From Branchiostoma floridae (Eukaryota; Chordata; Leptocardii; Amphioxiformes; Branchiostomatidae), in NCBI RefSeq assembly GCF_000003815.2, contig NC_049986.1:22684221-22748220 (forward strand): 64,000 nt of DNA, given 5' to 3'. Within the stretch, counting starts at the first letter, position 1. Each line of letters starts with the position of its first letter. The translations under genes and the position numbers were made by a program. Positions 30,938-63,790 of the stretch are shown here, in pieces. The notes under the pieces were generated by a model. The model ran no database searches and was not told the origin of the DNA. It saw nothing but the letters and a program-made list of their open reading frames with translations.

Positions 30938-31160
30938 TGAAAAATACACGAATGCACAATAGGTTATTGCACCTTGACTTCAACCTTTGCTGTTAAAATT
31001 TGTTTGGTTAGTTTTGCATCGAAGTATCCAAGCAGAATATGAAAATAATTTAAAATTTGTACGTGATCCAGCAAAATGGGTATGTATAAACATGTTGGAT
31101 CGGTTTTACAAGTACACAAACAGAATATGAAAATACACGAATGCACAAAAGAAACTTGGT
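30938..31160 (+). repeat. two-copy repeat, about 187-bp offset
   Basis: AAAATACACGAATGCACAA followed by a diverged CTTCAACCT(T/C)TGC segment occurs at about 30942 and 31129. Confidence 0.65.
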
Positions 31161-31924
31161 ACTAGACTTCAGCCTCTGCCATGCTAGTTCTTACATTATG
31201 GCCCAGCACGCCACAACGGGTACAGTGTTGAAGTCAATCAACTGTGCTTTGATCAACAGGGCATTAGAAGTATAGAGCCAGTGGTTCAAAAGCACGTCAC
31301 AAATTATATTGTATGTGTTACCTTTCCTTGCGTGGCCCTTGTTGAAGTTGAAAAATCTATTTATCTTAACTATAGAGCGTCCCAATTGCACCTGAAGGCT
31401 TTTCAATACGTTCCTGCACGTGTTCAATAATTTTGTGCAAATGATTAGTACAAAAATGAGTGCGCATGTTAATCGCAATTTCTACTGCTATAGCCTTGTA
31501 CTGCTTTACTCAGGAATGTCATCAATTTCTTTGGACATATGAAACCGACATCGCCTAACCAGATACAACAGAATGCGCCAACCATATATAAGAAAAGTCA
31601 AATGCAGAGTTTAGCATTCGGCGATGTATCACATACATACATGTATGCATTATCATCGAATACATCTTATGGTTGTTATGTCAGCTCCCCACTCTCGCCA
31701 CACTTTCTTATAGAGTTATTTTTACGTCCGGTGTTGCTACAGTCAAACTTGTTAAAGAATACCAATTTCGGGACCAGTGTAACGTGGTCTTTTAGACAAG
31801 TGGTCTTCTCATACAAAGGAAGTAAAAACGGCTAGATAGGGCAGACAATGATTTCCGTTAACGGTCTTTAATTCCACATACGGTATTACCTGCACATTTG
31901 TACAAGATAAAGAATCACGTTCCT

Positions 31925-33080
31925 ACATCATTTACATCCCTGGTCAACCATGTCTAGTTTTACATAAATTGTATTTGGATTACATTCATCATTTAGTCTG
32001 GAAAAATATACAATTTTCCAGTATGATAAAGGTCAACCATGTCTACTGTCATTTGCACTGGAAAAACATAAACCCAACTGTTTCTGGTCGCAAGGGTCGA
32101 GCTATCAGGGGAATTCTGCAACTCCGCAGAGCGAGTGCGGGACGTCCCTATGTCGTTTCTGGGAAGGAAAATTATTGGAATTTTTCTTTTAGTAAGTTTA
32201 TTTTAGTAAAACATTCTTTTAAGTATTTGTTATAATGATACCTCTTACAAACAAAATGCTGATAATGAATGAACGAGTGACTTATTGAATATAATGAATA
32301 AAATGAATCTGCTTGGCGGTTGAAAGTTGTACAAAAGCGAAATACGTGTGAAATTATAAACTTACCTTCTTTAACCATCAGTTCCCCTTCCATTTTTCTG
32401 TTAGAGTAGCTGAAGAAGACGTGTTCCATCGGTAGTGCTGACCGATTTTCCAGCTGCTTCATTGGTATGGCGTACGGATGCTCGCCGCTCACATTTTTTT
32501 TATGAATGCTGTTTGAGGCGTATTATAGAAGTATAGAGCAACATCAATGTGGAATCGGCTACCTATAGCACTACAGTCCGCCCTATCTTCAAGGTCCTTC
32601 AAAACTGGTCTCTGTGACCTGGTCTCCTGTATGGAAAAATGATCTTGGCTGCTCCATAACTTGCGTATTGTGTATATATCATGACTGTTTTTAACTATGT
32701 TTGTAAATATTGTCCACTGTATGTGTTATCTGTGTATATGTATGAAGTCCAGGAAGATAGTGGCGTGCCCTAGGGCACGTCACTAATGGATTTTCGAATA
32801 AAGTTTCAAGTATTCCGTGCAGATCGTATCATCGTTAATGTTACTTTTGCTAAAAAGGGGGGCTTTGTACCAGTACTGTACCATAGGAATCGATTTGGTA
32901 CAGGTTTTAACAGTCAGGTTTAGGGTTAGGTTATATGAAATTAGTCATTCGGTCAAAAGCGTCTTGTCACTTAAGATTTACAAGATTTACTCGCCAATAG
33001 CAGTCTGGTTCCAAACAGTACTTAGCATGTCATCTGCCTGATCAAACACATTCAACAGCTCCCCCTTCGCCCTTCTTCGG
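31925..33080 (-). repeat. paralogous block, copy 1 (with LINE insertion)
   Basis: Collinear with 44565-45395. Shared blocks are CATCCCTGGTCAACCATGTC, GCGAGTGCGGGACGTCCC and a minus-strand copy of the penultimate exon of the cassette family (32370-32492: ENRSALPMEHVFF, then GELMVKE and a GT donor). The copy is longer because of the insertion at 32524-32813. Confidence 0.8.
32524..32813 (+). mobile_element. 5'-truncated LINE 3' end inserted in the paralogous block
   Basis: The plus-strand frame 32538-32642 reads ATSMWNRLPIALQSA, then SFKTGLCDLV and stops. This WNxLP...FK pattern is the C-terminal tail of CR1/L2-like reverse transcriptases. A 3' UTR with AATAAA at about 32798 follows. The empty counterpart at 45144 defines the borders, with TAT on both sides as a possible short target duplication. 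Confidence 0.7.
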
Positions 33081-33532
33081 CACATAAAATCTTTATTATT
33101 ATTATTCATTTGAAGTATAAAAACCCATAGGCACACAAAATATCCCACATGCATATACATTAAAAACAGCTATCTGAACAATAGGTCATAGCAGTTGCGG
33201 CAAAAAAAGTGTTTCTGTAGTACATGTCTCACAAGTCAACAAGTGCCTTATAATAGAGGAGGCCATTAATCTTTGTAAGAAAGAATACCAAACCCTCCTT
33301 CGTCTTGATTCAAAAGTGTCAGTCGAATGGTACACAAACATTGCACTGGCGCTACACCGTCGTGGCAAATTCATAATAGTCGGTTACTTTTATGTCCTTC
33401 ATGAGGTTTACAAGACAGGCCAGGTTGGGAACTTTACTAGCACTACCGTCAACCTAGTCTTCCTCGTCCGAGGCGTCCTTGTCACCACTCTTCTGCAGTT
33501 CCTGCATGCATCAGGATAGTCGCATCTTTCTC

Positions 33533-35110
33533 CTAGTCTCCGGCCTCTGTCTCGTTAGTCGCCAGATCCTGGTTGATGTCTGCTAGTTCCTGGAAGTTGC
33601 AGCCGAACAGCTCTTGGGCGAGCTGCTCCATCCCAGTATCGTGAACCCGGCCATACTGATGCTCTGCGCTGGCTGACTCATAAGTGTCTGCTACAAAAAT
33701 ATGTATAAAAGAGACAAAAATAAGAAGAAAATAAAACACTGACCACAGCAAGTATTTGAACAGTTGTGTCACGCTACTAGACTGCTGGAAGTCATTGCTG
33801 CCCTAATAGAGAGCACTTTAGCTTCCTGGCAAACTTGAGGCATGTTGAGGTCCATTCTTCTTTCTTGAAGTTTTATTGTTCAGAAGTGTGGTTTCATAAT
33901 CAATCGCGGAACGCAAAACGTTGATGATAAAATGAAGAACGAGTAATTAGTTGGTTCATATGAATTGAATTGATCTACTAGGCGGTTCAAAATGGTACAA
34001 AAGTGAAATATGTATAAAATTATCAAAGAACTTACTTTCTTCAACCATCAGCTCCCCTTCGATTTTTCTGTTCGAGTAGGTGAACACGACGTGTTCCATC
34101 GGCGGTACTATAGTTAGTGCTGACCGATTTTCCAGCTGCTTCATCTGTATGACGTACGGATATTCGCCGGTCACATGAATCATTGCGTACATCTCACTAG
34201 CGTTCTGGAAAGTAGTTTGGAGTCTTCTTTATTTCAGACAAGGTCCATGGAAAACCGTATGAAGCTACTTTATGAAGTCTTTCATCTTTCACAAATTTAA
34301 ACAAAGGGTTCACAAATTTAAACAAAGGGTACACAAAAATCTGGGGCGTGCCCCAGCCAGACCCCCTTGTGCCCTATCCTAGAATAATTGTAATGGCATA
34401 ACGACATAACAAAAATAATAAAGTACTGGTTTTGATGAAGCGATCAAGATTTCGCTCCGTGAAACGCCTGCACGGAAAATACTACAACGTTGCGCTTCAC
34501 TACTTTGACTCATGCAAACTTTCTTCATTGTGAAAAAACGCCAAAGTGGGGGAGTCATTTTCATCTCCATTTTCATGCATTCAAATAATGGTACCGTTTA
34601 GAACGGACCGAGTTGTTTTTTTTGTTCTTCATATATCGTATCCTCTTTTCCATCGTGCATAAAAGAAGATTTGATTTCACAGAAAGAAAGTCTGATTGCC
34701 TTGTCAGGAAAGGCTTTGTTTGCCTTTTTCTTTATGCACAGACACATCACCCATACCATCCGCTTCATCCTTAATCAATGTGTGTTAGAAGGTTCATCGA
34801 AATTTAGTCCCATTTCCTCTAATCCGCTTACAATATCTTCATCAAGTTTTCCCAGTGTCTTTGATATGTGAAAACATAACCCTCTTCGTTTTCGGATACA
34901 TTACATCTAGGCACGTTCCGACCTTAGGCTAGTACCTGCAACAACAGGGCCCGCCTCCTATACCCCCAGAGCTACTATCCGCTGGTTTAGAACATCTAGC
35001 TGCTGTGTTAATTCTGTCCCTTTTGCAAAGAAGTAGGGCTTCGTACCAGTACCATGAGAATCTATTTGGTACAGGGTACTGTTAGGGTTGGTTTATATGG
35101 CCCAAGGCTG
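33533..35110 (+). repeat. segmental duplication, copy 1 (about 1.6 kb)
   Basis: Nearly base-for-base equal to 40230-41840, 6.7 kb away, including introns and the shared TGA of the upstream exon. The few differences include a short CTA/ATCACTACTTT indel. Introns as similar as exons point to a recent duplication or gene conversion. Confidence 0.85.
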
Positions 35111-36395
35111 TCATTATCAACTTAAACTATTTAAATTTACTCACCATCAACATCGCCACTTGCAGAAGAAGGGTGGCCACCTGGTCCTGAAGCCCGCCAA
35201 CCTGGCCCTGCAGACCACCCACCTGTCCCTCAAGAGCACCCACTTGCTGGCGTAGCGCAGCAATTTCCTGATCTTTTCGCTGTAAACACAATATGTAATT
35301 GTTGTTACTTATGTAAAGCTTCATACCCGTACTATGTACTTAGACTTCAGAGGTACTGTACCATGAAAATCGGTTTGCCCCAATTGATGAGTGTTGAAAA
35401 GTAATATGAAATTCGTCATTCAGTCTGTCATTATCAACTTAAACTTTATAGATTTACTCACCAAGAGCATAGTAACCTGAAGCATCAGTGTGGCCACCTG
35501 TCCCTCCAATCCACCCACCCGCTGGTTCTGATCTTTACGCTGTAAGCATAATTTGTTAGTGTTACTATTACTGAGAAGTAGAGCTTTGTACTGTATCGTG
35601 AAAATCGATTTGGCACAGGTTAGCATTGGGTTCAATGAAAATAGTCTTCGGCCAATCGTCTTGTCTGTAATTATCAACTTAAACTTAGACTTACCACCTG
35701 CAACAGCAGGGCCGCTACCTGCCCCTCCAGTACATTTCCCCGTAGAGATTTTCATTAACATGGCCACCTGCAGGATCAGTGTGGCGACCTGCCCCTCCAA
35801 GGCTCCCACCATCTGCTGCAGATCTCCAATCTCCTGGTCTTTGCGCTGTAAAAACACAGTAACTACGTTAATGTTGTTACTTTTGCCAAGAAGTAGTGCT
35901 TCGTACCAATAATGTGTACTGTTTACCGTAACTGTCCCATGAACATCGATTTGGTACAGGTTAGCGGTGGTTTATATGAAAATAGTTATTCGGTGAAGCG
36001 CCTTGTCTCTCGAATTTATTATCAACTTAAACTTGATAGACTTACTCACCATCAACATCGCCACTTGCAGCATCAGGGTGGCCACTTGACCCTCTAGTGC
36101 ACCCACGTGCTTGTTGAGACTTGTTGTCTTTCTGCTGTAGGAACACTATGTTAATGTTTACTTAAGCTAAGAAGTAGGGCTTCCTACCGGTACTGTACCA
36201 TGGGAATCGATTTGGTACAGGTTACTGTCAGGGTCAGGGTTAGGTTTTTACTTTTAGTCATTCGGTTCAAAGGCGTCTTGTCACTTAAAATTTACTAGAT
36301 TTACTCACGAATAACATTCCTATCTGCAGCATCAGCCACCTGTCCCTCGAGGGCCCATACCGACTGGTTTAGCCAGCTATCTGCTGGTCTCTGCG
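33533..36395 (-). pseudogene. cassette gene family, block A (decayed copy)
   Basis: Minus-strand exons in order: coiled-coil cassettes 36395-36309 (frame lost, stop), 36134-36050 (85 nt, frame lost), 35845-35695 (fused, 151 nt), 35539-35462 (RKDQNQRVGGLEGQVATL), 35279-35145 (RKDQEIAALRQQVGALEGQV with three extra heptads). Next comes a degenerate exon near 34960 and an exon starting at 34858 (TLGKLDEDIVSGLEEMG) with an in-frame TGA at 34775-34777. The penultimate exon 34204-34036 contains GEYPYVIQMKQLENRSAL and YSNRKIEGELMVEE. The last exon, 33690-33533, contains LFGCNFQELADINQDLATNE and ends early at GAC-TAG where block B has GAC-TGG. Function unknown; the protein would be largely coiled coil. 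Confidence 0.65.
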
Positions 36396-36979
36396 CTGTA
36401 AACACAATATGCTTTTGCTGTTACATTTGCCAAGAAGGTTTTCGGAAATGCCTGAAATTTAATTTGTGGTTTACCATCATGTTGTCTACTATCCGTTTTC
36501 TTGCCTTGGTTTGTGTGCATGCATGAAAAAAAGGCATCTACAGTATCTGGCCCTTTTAGTTATGAAAGTCAATCACCCTCGCTACATTCACAAACGTGAT
36601 GAATTGTATAGGGGTAATAGGCACCTTTGGAAAAAAGAGTGCTTCGTAACTGGGTCATGTGATATCAAACAAGTTATGTTTAAGAGGTTTATCTTTATCC
36701 GGGGCTATATCAATTGTTTTTGGAAGCAGGGTATCTAGTTATATCAAGTTGACGGAAGTTAGTTTAAACTGAAAAAATGTGCAGTATCGTTTGCAGTCTG
36801 GACTTGTAAACTACAAGAAGTAATGCAAAATACAGCTAAATGAGAAACCTGGTGTCCTGAAGTCCTGATTTCTTTGTGTAAATGTAAATTTACACTAAAA
36901 ATGTCATCAAAATGGAAACATACATCGGTGTGTGAGCAGTACAACATTAACATAAAGGGAAATACTTACTGACAGTTAC

Positions 36980-37166
36980 ATGGAACCCAAAACCCGCCAG
37001 ACTCCAAAATTGCGAGCTTCGCTATTAGGTGGAACTGACCAGGCTGTAGAATAGACGGGCAATGGTTGAGTTTCTTACTTATAGTTACAGGGACCCAAAG
37101 CCGCCGGATTCTAAAATTGCGAACCTCTCTTTTAGCTCCTCAACTTCGAGGCATCTCCTGACCAGT
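36980..37166 (-). other. coiled-coil-like exon (78 nt) and its degraded neighbour copy
   Basis: Exon 37166-37089 lies between CTGTCCACAG-type acceptor sequence and GTAACT. It is 78 nt with phase 2-2 borders and encodes LVRRCLEVEELKERFAILES followed by GGFGSL. A shorter copy at about 37046-36977 keeps an acceptor and donor but has two stops. Both carry the AILESGG motif seen again near 39940 and 51030 (AILESGx-MAIKL). They probably belong to the same minus-strand gene family. Confidence 0.5.
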
Positions 37167-37499
37167 CTGTGGAAGTGAGGGAGAAAGGTTGAGTTTCCTC
37201 ACTTGCTAAGTTACAATATCCTTACACCTACTGTGTCTTCTGTCTAACTGATGTATTATTGCTTCAGATTACGGGCATATAGTTATGCAACGTTATGTCA
37301 AATTTGTCTGTTTTGCGTGATCCACGGCGTGATTTGGTCCACGACACTTCTGTACGCACCGTGGAAGACTTCCGACCACATCGACACAGAAAGTTTATTT
37401 GCAAGTTCATGCGCGAAAGCAAATTGCCAGAATCTACTGGTCCCCTTACCATGGATTTAGAGGGTTTATGGAATTTCTTCTTGTGATAGTATTAGTTTT

Positions 37500-37611
37500 G
37501 CCATGATGGGGAAGTGATAGTCACATTGACAAGGATGAGATTTGTGAGGGAGATGAACTGTGATGTTTTTTTGTAGTCCACTTTCTGACTTGAAGTTTTT
37601 CCCACATGTCA
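37500..37611 (-). pseudogene. degraded C2H2 zinc-finger segment
   Basis: Minus strand reads VTCGKNFKSESGLQKNITVH followed by KSHPCQCDYHFP. CxKxF and VH-x-x-H-K linker-like features are kept, but the first C-x2-C is incomplete and one finger His is replaced by Asn. A diverged copy lies at 50540-50700. Confidence 0.5.
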
Positions 37612-38018
37612 CAAACTGTCAAAATCATGTTCCAGCTGCGCAAGAAATTCCGTAACTACCTTAAAGTCGAATGTCTCTCTTGCCATGATGCTTATTCCTA
37701 CTCTCACTGCATATCTCGAGATTATTTTATAGAATTATAACTTTTTTTGCGTCATCGAGTCTCTATAAGGCCTGACAGATATTGTGCAAATCATAACAGC
37801 CATCGCATATATATATATATATATATATATACATCCGTAAATGCTATACTATTAGTAAACAGTACAATTATCTTGTCGAAGAACGCTACCCGTAGCATAA
37901 AACATGAGAGTTCCACTTTCAGTACATTCAGGTATTGTCCTGGTTTAGTGTAAGCTGCACTAAGAAATATAATTTTTTTTAAATAATAATAGATGCAGTT
38001 TTAGATTCTCCAACCTGC

Positions 38019-39530
38019 CAGGCTCCTAGGCCTTAAGCCATCCAGCAGAGGACCCCAGCCGCCTCAACATTAGGGGAACACCTGTACTAAAAATACCAAA
38101 TAGGTTACCAACAAAATACGAAATGCTAAGGTCTACTTATTACAATAACTGGGTCACCAACAAAAGGCTTATATATGTACCACACTTCTTATCATAGCTT
38201 CTTTAAGTGAGGCTGGTAGATTAAGAGGTGCCTTTTTTATATGCATAAATGCAGTTTTAGATTCTCTAACCTACCAGGCTTCTGGCTTTAAACCACCCCC
38301 TGGAGGACACCAGTCTCCTGAGCATGAGGTGAACACCTATATTTGAAATACCAAATGGGTTACCAACAAAATACTGAAATGCTACGGTCTACTTATTACA
38401 ATATCTGTGTCACCAACAAAAGGCTTATATCTGTACAACGCATATCTGTACCAAACTTCTTATCATAGCGTCTTTTTAAGCGAGACTGGTAGATTTAAGA
38501 GGTGACTTTTTCATATACATAAATGCAGTTTTAGATTCTCCAACCAACCAGGCCTTTGCGCTTCCAGCCAGTTGGCTGATGACTGCAGTCTACGCAGCAT
38601 CAGTGGCACTCCTGTGATGGAAATAACAAAAACGTTACTAAGAAAATACTGAAATGCTAAGGTCTACTTATTACAATAACTGGGTTCTGCTTTAAGAAAT
38701 ATCTTTTTATTTTTATTTTTTTTGTCTAAATTACAGATGTAGTTTTAGATTCTCCAGGCTCCTGGGCCTGAAGCCAGCCGGCTGAAGACTATAGGCGTCT
38801 GAGCATCAGGGCAACACCTGTATTGGAAATAACAAAAAGGTTACCAACAAAATACTGAAATGCTAAGGTCTATTTATAACAATAACTGGGAAACCAACAA
38901 AAGGCTTATATAAGTGAGACTGGTAGATTAAAGAGGTGCCTTTTTCATTTACATGCAGTTTTAGATTCTCCAACCCACCAGGCCTTTGTGCTTTCAGCCA
39001 GTTGGCTGATGACTGCAGTCGACGCAGCATCAGTGGCACTGCTGTGATGGAAATAACAAAAATGTTACCAACAAAATTCTGAAATGCTAAGGTCTACTTA
39101 TTACAATAACTGGGTCACCAACAAAAGGCTTATATATGTACCACACTTCGTATAGCTTCTTTAAGTGAGGCTAGTAGATTTAAGGAGGTACCTTTTTTCA
39201 TATACATAATGCTGTTTTAGATACTCCAATCTACCTGGTTTCTGCACTTCAAGCCAGCCCGCTGAAGACTGTAACCTACGCAGCATCAGTGGCACTCCTG
39301 TGATGAAAATAACACAAAGGTTTCCAACAAAATACTGAAATGCTAAGGTCTATTGCAATAACTGGGTCACAAATAAAAGGCTTATATGTGTGCCACACTT
39401 CTTATCATAGCTTCTTTAAGTAAGGTACCTTTTTCATATACATAATGCAGTTTTAGATACTCCGGCCTACCGGGTTCCTGTGTCTGAAGCCAGCGGAAAG
39501 ATCCAGAAATCCTCAACATCAGAAGGGTTG
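38019..39530 (-). repeat. array of 63-nt phase 1-1 exon cassettes (seven copies)
   Basis: Minus-strand cassettes 38081-38019, 38336-38275 (62 nt, frame lost), 38611-38549, one near 38815-38755 (truncated donor), 39041-38979, 39297-39235 and 39530-39471 (60 nt). Most sit between CACAG and G/GTNGGT and are exactly 63 nt. The peptide pattern is VPLMLRRLQSSA-x-WL-x-AQ-x-PG. Stops occur in the first and fourth of these. Period is about 210-275 bp, with introns also repeated (AAATGCTAAGGTCTACTTAT, ACAAAAGGCTTATAT). Open copies with acceptor and donor kept suggest real exons; the function of the peptide is unknown. Confidence 0.75.
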
Positions 39531-39639
39531 CTTTTGCTGAAATGCCAAACTGGTTACTAACAAAATGCAAAAATCCTAAGGCCTATTTATTACAGTAATA
39601 ACTGGGTCACCCACAGAAGATATGTCATGTTGTTGGCAT

Positions 39640-40040
39640 TAGCAAAAGCTCAGTTTCAGTTCAGTTCCTCTGCAAGTCTGGGGTTCCCCTTGTAGCTTAG
39701 ATATCTAGACCATCCTTTGCAATTTGACATCCTAGATCTACATACCTACTTTACATTGGCTTTAAATGTTTTACATTCTTGTGCAAGAATATTGTTGTAT
39801 CAATGCTAAATGTTGTAAACTTGTTGCAAAATACCGACTGGGCCTGTGTTGGCTGGACCAGTGCATCGGCTTGTTTTACATTTTTATCTAGCTTTATTGC
39901 CATGAAACCACTCTCCAGGATAGCCGTGTGTTCCAGGAGGCGCGAAGACTGGTTGTCGCAGCCCATATCCCCCGCTTGTACATCGCTTAATGAGCCATCC
40001 TCCATGTATCCCCCTCAGCCTTGGGTACGCCTCGTATATG
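39640..40040 (-). other. repeat-related segment with AILESG open frame
   Basis: Minus frame includes RLLEHTAILESGFMAIKLD. The same segment recurs, diverged and split, at 51000-51060 (NTAILESGSMAIKLK) and 51575-51815. Frame conservation between copies hints at a former exon. Confidence 0.4.
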
Positions 40041-40199
40041 TACTTGCTAGAACTCTGTTCGAATGCCCATATGCATATCGCATTTCTAATTATTACTTCT
40101 TAGAGCACTGTCTTGAAAACACCTCAGCTCTTCTTCTGCACATAAAATCTTAATGTCCTTCATGAGGCTCACAAGACAGTTCAGGAACTTTACTTCAAC

Positions 40200-43172
40200 C
40201 TAGTCTTCCTCGCCCGACTTGTTATTGTCACCACTCCTCTGCAGTTCTTGCAGAGTCGCATCCTTCTCCCAGTCTCGGGCCTCTGTCTCGTTAGTCGCCA
40301 AATCCTGGTTGATGTCTGCTAGTTCCTGGAAGTTGCAGCCGAACAGATCTTGGGCGAGCCGCTCCATCCCAGCATCTTGAACCCCAGACTCAAGCTCTGC
40401 GCTTGCTGACTCAGAAGTGTCTGCTACAAAAATTACAAAAGAGATAAAAATAAGAAGAAAAATAAACAGTGACCACAGCAAGTATTTGAACAGTTATGTC
40501 ACGCTACTAGACTGCTGGAAGTCATTGCTGCCCTAATAGAGAGCACTTTAGCTTCCTGGCAAACTTGAGGCATGTTGAGGTCCATTCTTCTTTGTTGAAT
40601 TTTTATTGTTCAGAAGTGCGGTTTCATAATCAATCGCGAAGCGCAAAACGTTGATGATAAAATAATTAACGAGTAATTAGTTGGATCATATGAATTGAAT
40701 TCATCTACTAGGCGGTTCAAAATGGTACAAAAGTGAAATATGTATAAAATTATCAAATAACTTACTTTCTTCAACCATCAGCTCCCCTTCGATTTTTCTG
40801 TTCGAGTAGGTGAACACGACGTGTTCCATCGGCGGTACTATAGTTAGTGCTGACCGATTTTCCAGCTGCTTCATCGGTATGACGTACGGATATTCGCCGG
40901 TCACATGAATCATTGCGTACATCTCACTAGCGATCTGGAAAGTAGTTTGGAGTCTTCTTTATTTCAGACAAGGTCCATGGAAAACCGTATGAAGCTACTT
41001 TATGAAGTCTCTCATCTTTCACAAATTTAAACAAAGGGTTCACAAATTTAAACAAAGGGTACACAAAAATCTGGGGCGTGCCCCAGCCAGACCCCCTTGT
41101 GCCCTATCCTAGAATAATTGTAATGGCATAACGACATAACAAAAATAACAAAGTACTGGTTTTGATGAAGCGATCAAGATTTCGCTCCGTGAAACGCCTG
41201 CACGGAAAATACTACAACGTTGCGCTACTACTATCACTACTTTGACTCATGCAAACTTTCTTCATTGTGAAAAAACGCCAAAGTGGGGGAGTCATTTTCA
41301 TCTCCATTTTCATGCATTCAAATAATGGTACCGTTTAGAACGGACCGAGTTATTTTTTTGGTTCTTCATATATCGTATCCTCTTTTCCATCGTGCATAAA
41401 AGAAGATTTGATTTCACAGAAAGAAAGTCTGATTGCCTTGTCAGGAAAGGCTTTGTTTGCCTTTTTCTTTATGCACAGACACATCACCCATACCATCCGC
41501 TTCATCCTTAATCAATGTGTGTTAGAAGGATCATCGAAGTTTAGTCCCATTTCCTCTAAGCCTCTTACAATATCTTCGTCAAGTTTTTCCAGTGTCTTTG
41601 ATATATGAAAACATAACACTCTTCGTATTCGGATACATTACATCTAGACAGCATTCCGACCTTACGCTAGTACCTGCAGCAACAGGGCCCGTCTCCTATA
41701 CCCCCAGAGCCACTATCCGCTGGTTTAGAACATCTATCTGCTGTGTTAATTCTGTCCCTTTGCAAAGAAGTAGAGCTTCGTACCAGTACCATGAGAATCT
41801 ATTTGGTACAGGTTACTGTTAGGGTTGGTTTATATGGCCCAAAGCGTCTTGTCTGTCATTATCAACTTAAACTTTATAGATTTACTCACCAAGAGCATAG
41901 CAACTTGTAACATCAGGTTGGCCACCTGGTCCTGCAGCCCGCCAACCTGGCCCTCAAGGGCACCAACCCGCTGGTTTAGGGTGGCAATTTCCTGATCTTT
42001 GCGCTGTAAACACAATATGTAATTGTTGTTACTTATGTAAAGCTTCATACCGGTACTGTGTACTTAGACTTTAGAGGTACTGTACCATGAAAATCGGTCT
42101 GCCCTAATTGATGAGTGTTTGATGAAAAGTCATTCAGTCTGTCATTATCAACTTAAACTTTATAAATTTACTCACCAATAGCATTGCAACTTGAAGTGTG
42201 GCCACCTCTCCCTCCAATCCAACCGCCAGCTGGTTCAGGTCAGCGATATCGATGGTCTGATCTTTCGGCTGTAAGCACAATATGTTAATGTTACTTTTGC
42301 TGAGACGTAGTACTTCGTACCCGTACTGTACCATGAAAATCGATTTGGTACAGGATAGCGTTGGGTTATATGAAAATAGTCTAAGGCAAATCGTCTTCTC
42401 TGTCTTTATCAATTTAAACTAAGACTTGTCAGCAGTATTCCCACCTGCAACAGCAGGGTCGCTACCTGCCCCTCCAGTACATTATCCCGTAGAGATCTTC
42501 TGACCATCAGCATGGCCACCTGCTGATCAGGGTCGCGACCTGGCCCTCCAAGGCCCCCACCCTCTGCCGCAGTCCTCCATTTTCCGGCCACAGGGCGTTG
42601 ATCTCCTGGTCTTTGCGCTGTAAAAACATAGTGACTTTGTTAATGTTGTTACTTTTGCCAAGAAGTAGAGCTTCGTATCAGTACTGTTTACCGTAACTGT
42701 CCCATGAACATCGATTTGGTACAGGTTAGCGGTGGTTTATATGAAAATAGTTATTCGGTGAAGCGCCTTGTCTCTCGAATTTATTATCAACTTAAACTTG
42801 ATAGACTTACTCACCATCAACATCGCCAGTTGCAGCATCAGGGTGGCCACTTGACCTTCTAGTGCACCCACGCGGTTGTTGAGCCTTGATGTCTTTCTGC
42901 TGTAGGAACAATATGGTAATGTTACTTTTGCTAAGAAGTAGGGCATCCTACCGGTACTGTACCATGGGAATGAGTTGGTATAGGTAACGGTTAGGGTTAG
43001 GTTATATGAAATTAGTCATTCGGCCAAGCGCCTTGTATTTAGAGCTCATTATCAACTTAAACTTAATATATTTACTCACTATCAGCATCGTCACTTGCAG
43101 GATCAGCGTGGCCACCTGGCCCTCAAGTGCGCCCACCCGCTGAGTGAGGTCAGCGATATCAGCGTCTTTCTG
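40200..43172 (-). CDS. cassette gene family, block B (best preserved copy)
   Basis: Exons in translation order: 43172-43080 (QKDADIADLTQRVGALEGQV, 93 nt), 42899-42815 (85 nt, frame lost as in block A), about 42617-42430 (frameshifted, donor unclear), 42268-42176 (PKDQTIDIADLNQLAVGLEG, 93 nt), 42003-41890 (RKDQEIATLNQRVGALEGQV, 114 nt). A degenerate exon near 41700 and one with an in-frame TGA at 41512-41514 follow. The penultimate exon 40934-40766 is 169 nt. The last exon, 40423-40200, encodes 73 residues including ERLAQDLFGCNFQELADIN and an acidic end KSGEED. Intact cassettes are phase 0-0 and end in MLM, MLL or MLI before GTGAGT. The last two exons join in phase and are fully open. Coding status of the whole is uncertain: it could still be expressed if the damaged exons are skipped. 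No known family recognised. Confidence 0.5.
40230..41840 (+). repeat. segmental duplication, copy 2 (about 1.6 kb)
   Basis: Partner of 33533-35110. Diverged relatives of the same segments occur at 45960-46200, 46560-46700, 47150-47560 and 47720-47960. Confidence 0.85.
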
Positions 43173-43199
43173 CTGTAGGAACAATATGTTATTGTTACT

Positions 43200-44300
43200 T
43201 ATGCTAAGAGGTGGGGCTTCCTACCAGTACTTTACCATTAAAATCGATTTGGTACCTGTTAGGGATGGGTTATATGAAAATAGTCGTTCGGGTAATCATC
43301 TTGCATCTCATTATCAACTTAATAGATTTACTAATCAGCAGTGTTCCGACCTCTGATGCAGCCCGTTTATCATCAATGCTATGCAAGTTATTATTGACCA
43401 GCACGCCACGATAGGCACAATGTTGAAGTCTCTGTCACCTGAACGGGCCTCTCTGTATCCCATAGCAGATGTGTGCATTAACGTTGACCATTTGCATGGC
43501 TTTTTAAATAAAGTGACACATTTTGATACGAGCAGAAGCTAATATCTTTGTCGACATGTTCCCTCGTCACATTTCGCGTCCTTAAGCGAATGGCAAACTA
43601 ACCTGACCTCACCGTCAAATTAAATACTAAGTAAAGACATAGAAATTAAGTAGCATTTCGTCTTCTTCTAGTTCTTCTTCCGCTATTGGCAGGCTTCATG
43701 TCAAAAACATGATCTGAATTATCGCTAATTAACACGTGACTAATTTACAAAGTTTGAGAGACTAAAACTTGAGACAAAAAACAAACACAGGAGCTTTTAT
43801 ACATTATTCGACATATGAAAAGACAGTGATTTCAGATCACAGAAGAGAATACAAAACGGTTGACAAACTTTGCGGTGGACAAGCATTGTGATGCCATGGG
43901 GAAACTGTTCTGGAGGGGTGTAGAACAGGACCAGCTCCAGTTTAACATATATGATGATAACATAACAACTGACAACTCTTGTCTGTACTAAGCTTTCTTA
44001 CATAAAAAAATATCACTTGGCTGCATGCATTCTACGTCAGTAAATTTATCGACGCATCCACTGTATCGGGTGATGATTTATTACATTAGAAAATAAACAG
44101 TAGCCTAAAGAAAACTACTTTATATAATAAACAGTGCAATTAGGTTGACAATGTACTAGTGATCCATATCAGAGAACAATAGCATTGAACATATCTCAAG
44201 AGCTATGCCGACTGCAGCAGTTCCACTTTGACTGGCAGGTTTTGTTTTCATTAAGTTGAATTGCACTAAGAAGTACACCTTTTTTCAAAGGCGATTTTAA
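43200..44300. other. spacer within the cassette cluster
   Basis: Apart from the segment near 43396 that resembles 31200 (CAGCACGCCACRA) and a decayed 63-nt-type cassette at about 44320-44395 with an internal stop, nothing recognisable is seen. Confidence 0.4.
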
Positions 44301-44564
44301 AAGATGTAGTTTCCGAATCTTCAGCCTCCAGAGCTTCTGTGCCGTCTCGAGCCGTTATTATTCTAAAGTCTGCTGAGCATCATAGATCAGTGGGCTACCT
44401 GTGATGAAAGTTGAGAATAACTTGAAATGACAGGTTCTACGTCTTTCACTGTTTTGATATCTTCGCCATGACTTCCATGCTGCAGCGTCATCGGCGTACT
44501 GAAAGTTGTAAACGTTTGTGTATGTGCACATCTGTACATGGTAAAGTATCACTGTTCCTGTATC

Positions 44565-45395
44565 GTTTACATCCCTGGTCAACCATGTCTAGTTTTACAC
44601 ACATTGCACTTGGATTACATTCATTACTTAGTCTGAAAAAATATAAGGTTTCCTGTATGATAAACGCAGCCATATCTACTGTCATGCTCTGGAAAAACAT
44701 AAACCCAACCGGGCGCAAGGGTCTAGCTATCAGGAAAATTCTGCAACTCCGCTGAGCGAGTGCGGGACGTCCCCATGTCGTTTCTGGAAAGGAAAATTTA
44801 TGGAAGTAAATCTTCTAGTAATTTTTTTTAGTAAACTATTCTTCAAATTGCAAGTATTTGTTATAATGACACTTGTGCCTCTTATAAACAAAAAGTTGAT
44901 AATGAATGAACTTACTGAATAAAATGAATCTGCTTGGCGGTTGAAAGTTGTACAAAAGCGAAATTTGTGTGAAATTATAAACTTACCTTCTTTAACCATC
45001 AGTTCCCCTTCCATTTTTTTCTGTTGGAGTATTTCAAGAAGACGTGTTCCATCGGCAGTGCTGACCGATTTTCCAGCTGCTTCATTGTTGTGGCGTACGG
45101 ATGCTCGCCGGTCTCAATTTTATGAATGCTGTTTGAGGCGTATTCCGTGCAGATCGAATCATCGTTAATGTTACTTTTGCTAAGAAGTGGGGCTTTATAC
45201 CAGTACTGTGCCATAGGAATCCATTTGGTACAGGTTATAACTGTCAGGTTTAGGGTTAGGTTGTATGAAATTAGTCATTCGGTCAAATCGTCTTGTCACT
45301 TAAAATTTACTCACCAATAGCATTCTGGTCCCAGTAACAGTACTTAGCATGTCATCTGCCTGATCAATCATATTCAACAGCTCCCCCAGCCCTTT
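44565..45395 (-). repeat. paralogous block, copy 2 (empty site)
   Basis: Same order of landmarks as 31925-33080 but lacking the LINE fragment. It holds another penultimate-exon copy at about 44988-45120 that has an extra base near KKWKGN and so shifts frame. Confidence 0.8.
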
Positions 45396-45486
45396 TTCTA
45401 CACATAGAATCTTAATGTCCTTCATTAGGCTCAGGTTCAAGACAGTTCAGGTTAGAAACTTTACTAGCACTACCGTCAACCTAGTC

Positions 45487-46409
45487 TCCCTCATCCGACT
45501 CGTAGTTGTGACCAGTTACTGCATCAGGACAGTCGCATCTTTCTCCCATTCTCGGGCCTCTGTCTCGCAAGTCGCCAGGTCCTAGTCCTGGTCGGCAAGG
45601 TCCTGGAAGTTGCAGCCGAAAAGCTCTTGGGCGAGCCGCTTCATCCCAATATCGTGAACCCCAGACGCCTGCGCTGCGCTGGCTGACTCAGAAATGCCTG
45701 CTACAAAAATACGTATGAAAGAGACCAAAATAGGAAGACAAAAAAAAAACACTGGCCACTGCAGGTATTTGAACATTTGTGTCACGCTACTAGACTACCA
45801 AAGTCACTGCTTGCTGTAGATCCAGCTTCCTGGAATACTTGAGGCACGTTGAGGTCCGTTCTTCTTTGTTGAAGTGGCAAAGTTCAGAAGCGCGGTTTTA
45901 TAGTCAATCTTATACTGGTGCTTATGTGTGAAAATATCTTAGAGTTTTACCTTTTTCAACCATCAGCTCCCCTTCCATTTTCTGTTAGAGTAGGTGAACA
46001 CGACGTGTTCCATTGGCAGTGCTGACCGATTTTCCAGCTGCGTCATGGGTATGACGTACGGATGTTCGCCGGTCACATCAGTCATCGCGTACATCTCACT
46101 GGGGTTCTGGAAAGTAGTTTGGATACACTTTGATGAAGCGATCAAGATTTCGCTCCGTGGAACGCTTGTAAACACGCAAAATACGCCGGCGTTTGGCTGT
46201 GCTGATATCCTTGCGGTAAATCAGTACCGGTTAGGATTTTGTCATATGAAACTATTCATTCGACCAAGCGGTCTGTCTGTCAGTACCAACTCTAACTTAG
46301 TTAGATATACTCACCAACAGCATTTCGATCCGGAGCGTCAGTGCGACCACTTGGCTCTCAAGGGCCCCAACCCTCTGGTACAAGCTAGCCCGCGATCTCC
46401 AGATCTTCG
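45487..46409 (-). pseudogene. cassette gene family, block C' (decayed short copy)
   Basis: A coiled-coil cassette 46409-46315 (95 nt, frameshifted) is followed directly by the penultimate exon 46106-45951 (GEHPYVIPMTQLENRSAL), which loses frame at NRKWKGS-stop. The last exon starts at 45700 and has a stop at 45582 in place of residues I-N-Q of the other copies. The intron before the penultimate exon lacks about 230 bp present in blocks A and B. Confidence 0.65.
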
Positions 46410-46559
46410 CTGTAAACAAAGTATGCTAATATGTTACTTTTAACAAGAAGTAGGGCTTCATGCCAGTACTGTACCATGAAAAAAGATTTGGTACATGTTA
46501 GGGGTGGGCTGGTTATATGAAATTTATCATTAGGCCAAGAGTTTTGTCTCTCATTATCT

Positions 46560-46700
46560 GCCTTTCTCTTTATGCACTGACACTTCACCCATACCATCCG
46601 CTTCATCCTTAACCGACGTGCGTTAGAAGGATCATCGGGATTCAACTGTTCTGGGCCCATTATAGTTTAATCAAGTTCGTCTAGTGTCTTTAACACTGCA
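46560..46700 (-). pseudogene. exon copy with the RLRMKRMVWV motif, stop-free version
   Basis: Encodes EQLNPDDPSNARRLRMKRM followed by VWVKCQCIKRKAD. Blocks A and B have a TGA where this copy has A-R-R. This shows that the segment was once open and that A and B share the same nonsense mutation. A further diverged copy is at 47800-47940. Confidence 0.5.
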
Positions 46701-46928
46701 TTTATGTATGAAAACATAACCCCCTTGGTATTCGGTAGGCAGTATTTCGACCTAGTATCTGCACCTCCAGTGCCACTGTCCGCTGGTTTAGACCGTCTAT
46801 CTACACGTTATTGTTGTTACTTTTGCAAAGAAGTAGGGCTTCGTACCAGTACCCTAAGAGAATCGATCTCCATGGCCCAAAGCGTCTTGCCTGTTTATTA
46901 TCAACTTAAACTTTATAGATTTACTCAC

Positions 46929-48356
46929 CAATAGCATTGCCGCCTGTAACATCAGTGTGACCACCTGGCCCTCCAAGCCACCCACCCGAAGGTTCAGGTC
47001 AGCGATGGTCTGATCTTTTGGCTGTAGGAACAATACAAAACGTTGATGATACAATGAATAACGAGTGATTAATTGAATCATATGAATTGAATTCATCTAC
47101 TAGGCGGTTCAATATTGTACAAAAGTGAGATATGTGTAAAATTATCAAAAACTTACCTTCTTCAACCATCAGCTCCTCTTCGATTTTTCTGTTAGAGTAG
47201 GTGAACACGACGTGCTCCATCGGCAGTACTAGTTAGTGCTGACCGATTTTCCAACTGCTTCATCGGTATGACCTACGGATGTTCACCGGTCACATCAGTC
47301 ACTAGCGTTCTGGAAAGTAGTTTGGAGTCTTCTTTATTTCAGACAAGGTCCTTGGAAAACTGTATAAGCTACTTTATGAAGTCTGTCATCCTTCACTGCT
47401 TCGCCAATTTAATGGTAAACAAAAATCTGGGGCGTGCCCAGCAAGACCCCTTTGTTCACTATCCTAGAAAAATTGTAACGGCATCACACTACTGGTTTTG
47501 ATGAAACGATCAAGATTTCGCTCCGTTAAACGCCTGCACGGAAAATACTACAACGTTGCGCTACTGCTATCACTACTTTGACTCCTGCAAACTTTCTAAA
47601 TTGTGATAAACTACTAAAGAGATTACAGTCGGGGAGTCATTTTCATCTCCGACGCATTCTAATAATGGTTAGAACGGGAGACCGTTTTTTTTTGGTTCTT
47701 AATATATCGTAACATATTTTCCATCGTGCATAACAGAAGGTTCACAGGAAGAAAGTCTGATTGCCTTATCAGGAAAGGCTTAGTCTGCCTTTTTCTTTAT
47801 GCACAGACACATCACTCATACCATCCGCTTCATCCTTAATCAATACGTTTATGATGATAGAATCGAAGGATAATCGGAACTCAGTCCCAACTGTTCTAAG
47901 CCGCTTCATCAAGTTTTTCCAGTGTCTTTGATATGTGAAAACATAATCCTTGGTATTCGGACACATTTAATTAGATCTAGGCAGCATTTCGACCTAGTAC
48001 CTGCAACAACAGGGCGGTCATCTGCATCTCCAGGGCCACTATCCACTGGTATAGACTATCTATCTGCTGGCCTGTCCACTGTAAACGTAATTATGTTAAT
48101 GCTATATTACTCTTGCAAAAAAATAGGCTCTGGTACCAGTACCATGAGAATCGATTTGGTACAGGTTACTGTTGGGGTTGGTTTATATGGCCCAAAGCGT
48201 CTTGTCTCTCATTATCAACTTAAATGTTATAAATTTACTCACCAAGAGCAAAGCAACTTGGAACATCAGGGTGGCCACCTGGCCCTGAAGCCCGCCAAGC
48301 TGACCCACAAGGGCACCAACCCGCTGGTTTAGGGCTGCGATCTCCTGATCTTTGCG
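46929..48356 (-). pseudogene. cassette gene family, block C (fragmented copy)
   Basis: Two intact coiled-coil cassettes remain: 48356-48243 (RKDQEIAALNQRVGALVGQL, 114 nt) and 47021-46929 (PKDQTIADLNLRVGGLEGQV, 93 nt). A third near 48080-47995 reads QQIDSLYQWIVALEMQMTAL. Between them lies a penultimate-exon copy, about 47317-47157, in which a deletion creates N-A-S-D-stop. Order is scrambled relative to blocks A and B, as expected after unequal exchange. Confidence 0.6.
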
Positions 48357-48817
48357 CTGTAAACACAATATGTAATTGTTGTTACTTATGTAAAGCTTCA
48401 TACCCGTACTGTGTACTTAGACTTTAGAGGTACTGTTCCGTTTTCGCTTTCGCCTATAATCAAAGCAACATGGCCTAAAGTTTGAAAACACGATGTAGTA
48501 TTGATCTAATTAAAGCAAGCTTGAAAACAATAATCTGCTGGAATGTATACCAGAATACTAAATGATACACAAATATTACTTAGTCACATGTTGGATGGAC
48601 TTGACTTCCTGCGGGTCTTTGGGATAAATACATATCTGTCCCTTCCAGTCTTGATCTGTGACAAAAGCAATAACTAACATTACAGTACTCTTACACAACA
48701 AAATATGTTTTCCTTTATTGCTTCCTTGCTCTTAATGTGTAGCCGTTTTGTGTCCAGTTCACTGTAACGACATGCACATAACTAATCATAGATTTATTGT
48801 TAGAATCTCCAACCTAC

Positions 48818-49668
48818 CAGGCTTCTGGGCCTGCAGCCAGCCAGGTGACGACCACAGCCGCGTAAGCATGAGAAGAACACATGTATTGGAAATACAAATA
48901 AGGTTACCAACAAAATACTGAAATGCTAAGGTCTACTCGTTACAATAACTGTGTCACCAACAAAAGGCTTATATATGTACCACACTTCTTATCATAGCTT
49001 CTTTAAGTGAGACTGGTAGATTTAAGAGGTGCCTTTTCATTTACATACATGCAGTTTTAGATTCTCCAACCTACCGGGCTGCTGCACTTCAAGCCAGCCA
49101 GCAGAACATTGGAGCCTTCGTAGCATGAGTGGCACTCCTGTGATGGAAATAACAAAAAGGTTACCAACAAAATACTGAAATGCTAAGGTCTACTTATTAC
49201 AATAACTGGGTCACCAACAAAAGGCTTATATATGTACCACACTTCTTATCATAGCTTCTTTAAGTGAGGCTGGTAGATTAAGAGGTGCCTTTTTTATATG
49301 CATAAATGCAGTTTTAGATTCTCTAACCTACCAGGCTTCTGGCTTTAAACCACCCCCTGGAGGACACCAGTCTCCTGAGCATGAGGTGAACACCTATATT
49401 TGAAATACCAAATGGGTTACCAACAAAATACTGAAATGCTACGGTTTACTTATTACAATATCTGTGTCACCAACAAAAGGGTTATATCTGTACAACGCAT
49501 ATCTGTACCAAACTTCTTATCATAGCGTCTTTTTAAGCGAGACTGGTAGATTTAAGAGGTGACTTTTTCATATACATAAATGCAGTTTTAGATTCTCCAA
49601 CCAACCAGGCCTTTGCGCTTCCATCCAGTTGGCTGATGACTGCAGTCTACGCAGCATCAGTGGCACTC
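48818..49668 (-). repeat. second array of 63-nt exon cassettes (four copies)
   Basis: Cassettes 48880-48818 (63 nt, acceptor AG changed to AT), 49137-49075 (63 nt, VPLMLRRLQCSAGWLEVQ, splice sites intact), 49393-49332 (frame lost) and 49668-49606 (63 nt, acceptor AG changed to AC). From about 49185 to 49815 it is nearly identical to 38130-38760, 11 kb away. Confidence 0.75.
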
Positions 49669-49834
49669 GTGTGATGGAAATAACAAAAACGTTACTAAGA
49701 AAATACTGAAATGCTAAGGTCTACTTATTACAATAACTGGGTTCTGCTTGAAGAAATATCTTTTTATTTTTATTTTTTTGTCTAAATTACAGATGTAGTT
49801 TTAGATTCTCCAACCTACCAGGCTCAAGGTTAAT

Positions 49835-62479: not shown

Positions 62480-63229
62480 GCTAAGTGTTTCTGTCAGAAA
62501 CAATGACATATGATGGCACTAGGACAAGAGAACTTGCTTCATCTTCTGCCCGATCCGTATATTCCAAACAGCTGATTGAACGGTTCCTTGACCACCTTAA
62601 ATGTTCCATCAACGTACCATGTCTTGGCATCCGCCAGCTTAATAGACAACTAGTCGTCTATGGCGAATATGAAGTGCCTCAGCGTGCCTACCGTTGCTTG
62701 ACCTCTAGAACGAGTCTTGGTATGAAGGTGGTGCCAAACTCGTCCAGATCAGGGGGGTCAGACTGTCAGAGGGTCGCAGCTTTTGGCGGTGTCTTTTCAC
62801 ATTACGGGCTAGGTTGGCTGATAGGGGACGGGGCATCTTGGTCTCAAATGTGCTGTACGTGGAATTTGTTCACCAGAGTGCCGGACGGTGCGAAGAGGTT
62901 GGCCTCGGCCCGTTTCTTGACCTCGGCGGTGATTTGGACGAGTGTTTCGGTACTTTCAGCTGGGTGGGTGTGGGTATACGGTGAAGGAAGCCGTCTTCCG
63001 TCTGCTTGACGGTCACGGGACACTTGTTGGTGCGGCTACGCTTGTCACACTTCCAATCTGTAGCGTACTGCCCCTCACGCTTGACATTGTAGGTGTAGCC
63101 CAGGTTGTCGACCAGTTTTGGATTGGAGCGTTGTGTTCCTCCTGGAATTATCTTGTAGGTGGGCGGCGGAACAGCAAGTTCTGCAGCCTGAAGTTCTGAC
63201 ACACGTGACTGGTATTCCTCTGAAGCCAT
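62480..63229 (-). pseudogene. MULE transposase with N-terminal FLYWCH domain, inactivated
   Basis: Starts MASEEYQSRVSEL. The FLYWCH zinc-binding domain follows at about residues 30-80: LVDNLGYTYNVKREGQYATD, then WKCDKRSRTNKCPVTV. A frameshift follows, then ITAEVKKRAEANLFAPSGTL in another frame, several stops, and the transposase core TWYVDGTFKVVKEPFNQLFG at 62546-62638, including the conserved D-G-T-F. A stop and another frameshift follow at the MKQVLLS remnant. The C-terminal RTNN motif is absent here. Dead copy of a Mutator-like DNA transposon. Confidence 0.8.
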
Positions 63230-63790
63230 GTTTATCTTCCATTGTGGTGGTGGTGTTCTAAATACGACCCTTCTCGACGGCAACGACCGTTTATGAAAAG
63301 GAAATTTGCGGCGAGGCTGGGTTGCCCGGGGTGATGTCTTCTGGTGTTGAGTCCATCACTGACGATTCCTCCTCACGTCGGGGATGGCGAAGGACACATC
63401 CAGTGGTTCTGTAACAAGGGGAAACTCCTACCTTGTCGGTGTGGGTTCTTTACGGCCTTGTGGTAGCTTTGGACAGTGGGCAACTCGACTACTAACCAAA
63501 AATTAACCTTACTCTAAAGCGTGCACGCTCTAAGCTGAACTCGTTTAAAATTGTCTGAACTCAACAAAAACTCAAACTGAACATTCGGAGCCTTGACCCC
63601 CTTGACCTCTGCTTGATTAATCCGTTACAGTTCATCAAAGCTAGGCGCCGGTGATGGTGGGGTAGGGTGAGCTCGTTGGTGATGGAATAGAGAGCCTTGT
63701 ATTCTCTGCTTCTGGCAGCCTCATCGGTCCATGGCTGTCTATCCATATAGTTCCTGGTGAAAGCCCCTCTGGGGTATTCCGACTAGATAG
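63230..63790. other. flank of the MULE copy, nothing further recognised
   Basis: Minus ORF 63746-63561 (RQPWTDEAARSREYKALYSI) faintly recalls LINE sequence but is too short to assign. Confidence 0.3.

Follow-up and report, generated by a model that had tools for sequence, protein, structure and literature searches.

On the minus strand of a 64,000-nucleotide (nt) stretch of the genome of the lancelet Branchiostoma floridae (C8:22684221-22748220, here termed the window) lies a cluster of short exon-like units, the A and B cassettes, followed by two 3′ units, C1 and C2. On balance, the cluster is probably a three-block composite littered with transposon remains, whose cassettes once coded protein, were multiplied by duplication and conversion and are now mostly decaying. 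There are three tandem, partly re-duplicated blocks, each with an A array, a dead fragment of RAG1L (of the ProtoRAG type), a C1 and a Tigger/pogo transposase last exon. On the minus strand, blocks 1 and 3 run in the order B array, A array, C1, C2; in block 2 a B relic at about 44.4 kb (placed by eye) stands in place of the B array. All results come from sequence alone, from which we infer both transcription and decay. The genome searched comprised 513,431,437 bases in 431 contigs and the match counts for it are lower bounds (the A search returned only part of the window's own A exons).

The proposed course of events is that A and B would belong, as exons, to a lineage-specific protein in which exon duplication and heptad gain lengthened the coiled coil. 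Their copies would have spread by block duplication and by exon-scale conversion within a transposon-rich region. Most copies would now be decaying, with at most one or two transcription units still yielding an A(n)-C1 protein. The evidence for decay is that seven of 14 A and five of 11 B cassettes are intact, and that differences among the C2 copies have no codon-position bias. Even if dead, the cluster clearly documents how exon arrays are built by tandem blocks into which RAG-type and Tigger fossils were seeded. Among the publications listed in literature searches, judged by title and the start of the abstract, none deals with the A or B cassettes.

Cassette structure and coding history

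The A peptide is a heptad coiled coil (RKDQEIAALNQRVGALEGQVATLMLQVAMLL) and the B peptide has the motif VPLMLRRLQSSA. The intact A exons are 78, 93, 93, 93, 114, 114 and 135 nts long and have an AG acceptor, a GT donor, an open frame and phase 0-0; the other seven A-like units are broken or without the usual donor. Lengths of 93, 114 and 135 nts step by 21 nts, that is by one heptad, with the 78-nt exon outside the series, and tandem repeats of 21-bp period are present. At the level of the peptide, the cassettes of 31, 38 and 45 amino acids in the window and that of 59 in a relative at a distance of 3.6 Mb are whole heptads apart, the one of 26 being the misfit. Intact B exons have acceptor, donor, a length divisible by three and an open frame; the rest have lost the acceptor, have a length of 62 nts or contain a stop. 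Much of what the original prediction had described is borne out: minus-strand units bounded by AG and GT, the four A exon lengths and their phase, B exons that are mostly 63 nts and phase 1-1 (seven of 11, the remainder being 62, 62 and 66 nts and one without a donor), and arrays that include the introns (repeated segments of at least 150 nts have about 74–95% identity, beyond chance). It was incomplete in that half of the cassettes are broken, and its start at 33533 was too far in, as related sequence extends to about 31.2 kb.

Differences among the cassettes are concentrated at third codon positions. For the eight open A exons of the window (this analysis leaves out the six broken A-like units), they number 130, 144 and 380 at the three positions over 840 codon pairs, with pN 0.161 and pS 0.559. 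Divergence by codon position is 0.159/0.181/0.461 for ten A copies from three loci and 0.300/0.204/0.547 for 15 B copies from five loci (Mann-Whitney p=9.3e-6), all of these being pooled pairwise values from copies that are non-independent. The signature is that of DNA that evolved as protein code, and it may be older than the blocks.

The silent sites of the exons are more diverged than the adjoining introns, which poses a puzzle. Over the 70 nts upstream of B the mean difference is 0.146, compared with 0.547 at third codon positions (15 copies; Mann-Whitney p=3.4e-8), and with one B copy per locus the values are 0.119 and 0.550. After 14 of the 15 B exons had been sorted by eye into two types (39536 was omitted), exon identity was 0.729 within types and 0.618 between them. 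For the intron 25–75 nts upstream the corresponding identities are 0.912 and 0.906, so the intron does not follow the exon types. The B intron end would be either constrained, for splicing for example, or homogenised.

Transposon-derived parts

Though no known family had been recognised in the cluster, there are two, a RAG1L fossil in each block, upstream of a C1, and C2 as the end of a Tigger/pogo-type transposase. A block 2 query joined from two frames matched the RAG1L of PDB 6b40 (E=9.5e-22), vertebrate RAG1 (about 1e-7) and the Pfam family RAG1, PF12940 (E=1.9e-10); a single-frame piece matched 6b40 with E=8.7e-8. The fossils are colinear with a RAG1L copy on contig C11. They differ from ProtoRAG in being fragments with broken frames that have C1 and Tigger sequence between them, and there is no complete open transposase frame. 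Because the match shifts frame at a corresponding place in the three blocks, the blocks probably multiplied after the fragment had died. In block 3 there is no RAG1L match between 34222 and 31510. A genome search with the PF12940 profile gave eight matches at E≤0.001, none of them inside the window.

About 53 ProtoRAG copies have been identified in lancelet data and most are non-intact (PMC7481187), so RAG1L fossils are to be expected here. The terminal repeats are CACTATG...GCCATCTTG with a 27/31-bp spacer (PMC8289069). An exact search for this pattern with a 24–34 bp spacer found it neither in the window nor in any of 32 loci, though diverged ends might escape it. Short pieces at 30996-31142 of the window resemble DNA on the far side of the C11 RAG1L copy, their orientation being opposite relative to the RAG1L C-terminal fossil.

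C2 is, by its homology, the last exon of a Tigger/pogo-type transposase. A genome search with it gave at least eight matches, three in the window and five elsewhere (open frames of 171–184 amino acids, one with a stop inside the match), and it is 71–75% identical to frames on contigs C1, C6 and C18. The copy on contig C1 (L057) directly follows an open reading frame of 412 amino acids, of which the 382 typed residues carry CENP-B_N and DDE_1, a transposase that we take to be Tigger/pogo. Similarity to the Tigger copies continues past C2 into their 3′ region, and at 45324 Tigger sequence passes straight into the 3′ end of an A cassette and an A-type intron. The window copies differ from these relatives in being preceded by C1 and A and in being cut by a stop: all three have a TAG where the contig C1 relative continues (EEDEVEASPSKV), two have earlier stops or shifts too, and that of block 2 is open as far as this TAG (40202-40200). 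Exon 1 of the transposase (CENP-B_N and DDE_1) was not found in the window by tblastn at E up to 0.01. Among the C2 copies differences at the three codon positions are 29, 35 and 34, of about 210 each.

C1 is of a different kind. At least seven genome matches were found with it, every one inside the window, and by these searches it appears to be confined to this cluster. Six copies or relics could be aligned, two of them intact, and the codon-position differences, 55, 81 and 114 of about 700 each, have a modest bias only. RAG1L DNA homology ends 17–18 nts ahead of the first base of C1. That C1 might be the catalytic part of RAG1L was considered and rejected, as hhalign with typed alignments aligned just the 18 columns upstream of C1, with a probability of 3.7. 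Pfam searches with B, C1 and C2 gave nothing above cut-off, and PDB searches with C1 and with a typed A3-C1-C2 concatenation gave no convincing match. Two shared 3′ exons are present as claimed, C1 and three copies of C2, but the second is a truncated transposase exon. The homology to transposons covers the 3′ parts of the unit; A, B and C1 matched no transposon family in these Pfam and PDB searches. An Rfam search of 31–54 kb had RF00630 as its sole match, which is sub-threshold (E=0.16) and is taken as chance.

The variable heptad number recalls the neck of collectins and surfactant protein D (PF09006), for which the typed A3-C1-C2 concatenation, at 22.7 bits, is just above the 22-bit cut-off. 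However, single A cassettes are below the cut-off, no lectin or collagen domain was found, and coiled coils hit such models unspecifically (MbeD_MobD is also above cut-off for the 59-amino acid cassette).

Relatives elsewhere in the genome

A genome search with the A protein gave at least six rows, four in the window and one each at C8:19.078 Mb and C8:22.516 Mb. The cassette at 19.078 Mb is open and, at 59 amino acids, the longest. At 22.516 Mb there are three A-like exons with the introns of the window (two found by script, the third by eye), one of the script-found exons being 88 nts and out of frame. Downstream of this second array is a RecQ-helicase-like frame (C8:22517401-22524400, L054; Helicase_C, E=4.4e-10), and near the 59-amino acid cassette is a GIY-YIG-like frame (C8:19076673-19079771, L050; E=0.0055, below cut-off).

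A DNA search with one B unit gave at least 15 matches, 11 in the window and one each at C6:3.945, C18:6.031, C10:2.703 and C8:22.763 Mb. The 122 nts upstream of the query exon matched the same 15 places and none besides. Lone B-like peptides without the B intron are at C165:455 kb and C6:3.987 Mb; the former (L032, C165:452001-458000) is about 1.6 kb upstream of a RAG1L-like stretch on the same strand (seen by eye, resembling the PF12940 locus L024). The B unit on C6 has a Tigger-like relic about 1.0 kb upstream (tblastn E=2e-15), though no Pfam family was assigned to this relic. Flank pieces with 70–77% similarity, spread across about 2 kb, are common to the C10, C18 and second C8 copies.

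Directly upstream of the dispersed B unit in L033 (C18:6029501-6032500) is a short element with inverted ends, CAGTAGAAGCC...GGCTTCTACTG, whose right end recurs in L001 (C6:3943669-3946688), both seen by eye. It looks like a non-autonomous Tigger relative.

Possible exchange at the scale of exons

Between blocks 2 and 3 the RAG1L fossil has diverged by 2.0% (14/690), C1 by 1.2% (2/170), the A introns by 7.6% (70/916) and the A exons by 13.7% (50/366; p=0.0014 versus introns). The difference is uneven, with 13.3% in the intron 35749-35540, 7.1% in exon A36.13 and 10.0% in C2. In the pair of A exons 35279-35145 and 42003-41890 the flanks differ at 4/100 and 5/92 positions and the exons at 22/114, with a 21-nt gap besides. 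In its first part, 35279-35145 matches an A exon 3.6 Mb away at 74 of 78 positions, the extra heptad being common to both; the flanks of that distant copy diverge more from its own (15/89 and 28/84). The second half is close to neither of these two exons (12/57 and 17/57). The partner A exons of blocks 1 and 2 are normal (12/114 in the exons, 18/100 and 6/100 in the flanks). Fisher's test on the mosaic gives p=0.024 (exon half) and p=2e-8 (flanks), at sites that were picked after inspection. The mosaic is consistent with part of an exon having been converted or exchanged, and is one clear case.

A pair of B segments, 37989-38756 and 49045-49812, has differences of 5/636 before, 6/22 just upstream of, 23/63 within and 1/24 after the exon. 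It was dropped as proof of exon-only exchange, as near-identity may simply stop 22 nts before the exon.

Potentially the locus might diversify small coding exons as modules, exchanged among members of the arrays and with distant loci, the conserved acceptor-side intron keeping the cassettes interchangeable for splicing. It would then be an exon-scale variation system in RAG-type and Tigger debris, which we regard as a long shot. Like arrays of the Dscam type, these consist of homologous symmetric exons repeated in tandem together with the introns (roughly half of the units being intact here). They differ in that many copies are broken. The 25 longest of 93 inverted pairs showed no docking/selector pairing, and the consensus fold of the intron element is weak (−2.21 kcal/mol).

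Competing explanations

The reading of a mostly decaying composite has points against it. The constraint on A and B could reflect a working rather than a dying gene, or could predate the blocks. Intact copies number seven for A, five for B (block 3 has four of its seven intact) and two for C1; in addition, one C2 has an open frame up to its stop, and the splice phases of C1 and C2 agree with that of A.

These same features lend something to the idea of a working lancelet gene family, in which variants of length and sequence would be made by selecting from the symmetric A and B exons, C1 being the constant end and a transposase-derived tail having been recruited as last exon; we consider this possible but unlikely. 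A (0-0), C1 (0-1) and C2, which starts at phase 1, are compatible, coding constraint is evident, and the conserved intron stretch at the B acceptor is beside a B exon in 15 of 15 cases. Of the gene family with length variants that had been proposed, exon duplication, length variation, the symmetry of intact copies and a strong coding signature are supported. Two 3′ exons of its own are not supported as stated, since C2 is a transposase exon with a stop and each block has a dead RAG1L fragment. Nor can B, at phase 1-1, be spliced directly to A, at 0-0, in frame. One cassette in two is broken, neither a first exon nor a promoter was identified, and C2, without codon-position bias, has a stop at equivalent positions in each of the three blocks. 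If expressed, the locus would be a case of symmetric exons that multiply and are exchanged amid transposon debris, a transposase exon having become the end of the gene.

Less likely again is an undescribed transposon of which A, B and C1 would be exons or captured DNA, with the arrays as tandem transposon remnants. C2 and RAG1L are of transposon origin, B units lie near transposon relics (Tigger-like on C6 and, by eye, RAG1L-like on C165), and the common flank pieces of the C10, C18 and second C8 copies would be in keeping with it. Set against this are the small numbers found genome-wide, at least 15 B units and at least three A loci, with C1 in this cluster only. Further, in 16 kb around the C11 RAG1L copy neither A nor B had a convincing match (best E 0.022 and 0.54), and three Tigger loci have no A or B DNA match. 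The exact ProtoRAG terminal motif is absent, element ends and target duplications not having been systematically searched.

Chance open frames in repetitive DNA with no coding history are scarcely credible: repeats of 21-bp period can remain open in one frame and many copies have stops or frameshifts, but the third-position excess, with the p value given above for B, and the common splice sites and phases speak against them.

Feature coordinates and neighbouring sequence

Table 1. Cassettes, C1 exons and transposon relics of the cluster, by position in the window
Feature	Position	Strand	Remarks
A cassette	48243..48356	-	intact, 114 nt, phase 0-0
A-like unit	48001..48079	-	beside RAG1L fossil, no clean 0-0 exon
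A cassette	46929..47021	-	intact, 93 nt
A cassette	46315..46409	-	95 nt, broken frame
A cassette	43080..43172	-	intact, 93 nt
A cassette	42815..42899	-	85 nt, broken frame
A-like unit	42427..42617	-	191 nt, broken
A cassette	42176..42268	-	intact, 93 nt
A cassette	41890..42003	-	intact, 114 nt
A cassette	36309..36395	-	contains stop
A cassette	36050..36134	-	85 nt, broken frame
A cassette	35753..35845	-	frame open, without usual donor
A cassette	35462..35539	-	intact, 78 nt
A cassette	35145..35279	-	intact, 135 nt; mosaic, first part resembles A cassette at C8:19.08 Mb
B cassette	49606..49668	-	acceptor lost (ACAC for ACAG)
B cassette	49332..49393	-	62 nt, broken frame; exon identical to 38275-38336
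B cassette	49075..49137	-	intact, 63 nt, VPLMLRRLQCSAGWLEVQQP
B cassette	48818..48880	-	acceptor lost (ACAT)
B cassette	39471..39536	-	intact, 66 nt
B cassette	39235..39297	-	intact, 63 nt
B cassette	38979..39041	-	intact, 63 nt
B cassette	38757..38817	-	stop, no donor
B cassette	38549..38611	-	intact, 63 nt
B cassette	38275..38336	-	62 nt, broken frame
B cassette	38019..38081	-	stop, GC donor
C1 relic	47157..47309	-	broken
C1, block 1	45951..46107	-	frame lost near end
C1 relic	44987..45145	-	downstream of Tigger relic, limits approximate
C1, block 2	40766..40934	-	open, phase 0-1
C1, block 3	34036..34204	-	open
C1 relic	32366..32520	-	limits approximate
RAG1L fossil, block 1	47327..47966	-	
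RAG1L fossil, block 1	46554..46736	-	second piece
RAG1L fossil, block 2	40951..41645	-	
RAG1L fossil, block 3	34222..34911	-	
RAG1L C-terminal fossil	31194..31510	-	GHARKGNTYN..HWLYTS
Tigger/pogo last-exon relic	45324..45736	-	C2 of block 1 and continuation, into A-cassette 3′ end and A-type intron
Tigger 3′ region	44525..44630	-	
Tigger last exon (C2), block 2	40126..40459	-	exon about 40423-40200
Tigger last-exon relic (C2), block 3	33389..33732	-	earlier stop
Tigger relic	33004..33096	-	continuation
Tigger 3′ region	31738..31995	-	

On the minus strand are C2H2-like fragments, which occur in pairs. Those at 50.49-50.67 and 37.43-37.62 kb are 78% identical to each other, that at 37.6 kb being without a Pfam family. 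Since the member in block 1 lies upstream of the B array and that in block 3 downstream, the B arrays have moved relative to the pair. Another such fragment is at 52.2-52.8 kb on the same strand (PF00096, E=0.00042, below cut-off).

Minus-strand frames at 53.5-53.9 kb resemble a fragment of a long interspersed element (LINE) reverse transcriptase; Pfam gave no supporting match. A FLYWCH zinc-finger-like frame, also on the minus strand, is at 62873-63355 (PF04500, E=0.00013, 22.5 bits with a cut-off of 23.6 bits). On the plus strand the frame at 7656-8030, perhaps with 7193-7507 (for which no Pfam family was found), ends with cysteines in a Ly6/uPAR-like arrangement (PF00021, E=0.015, below cut-off) and a hydrophobic tail, and is possibly the gene for a small glycosylphosphatidylinositol (GPI)-anchored protein.

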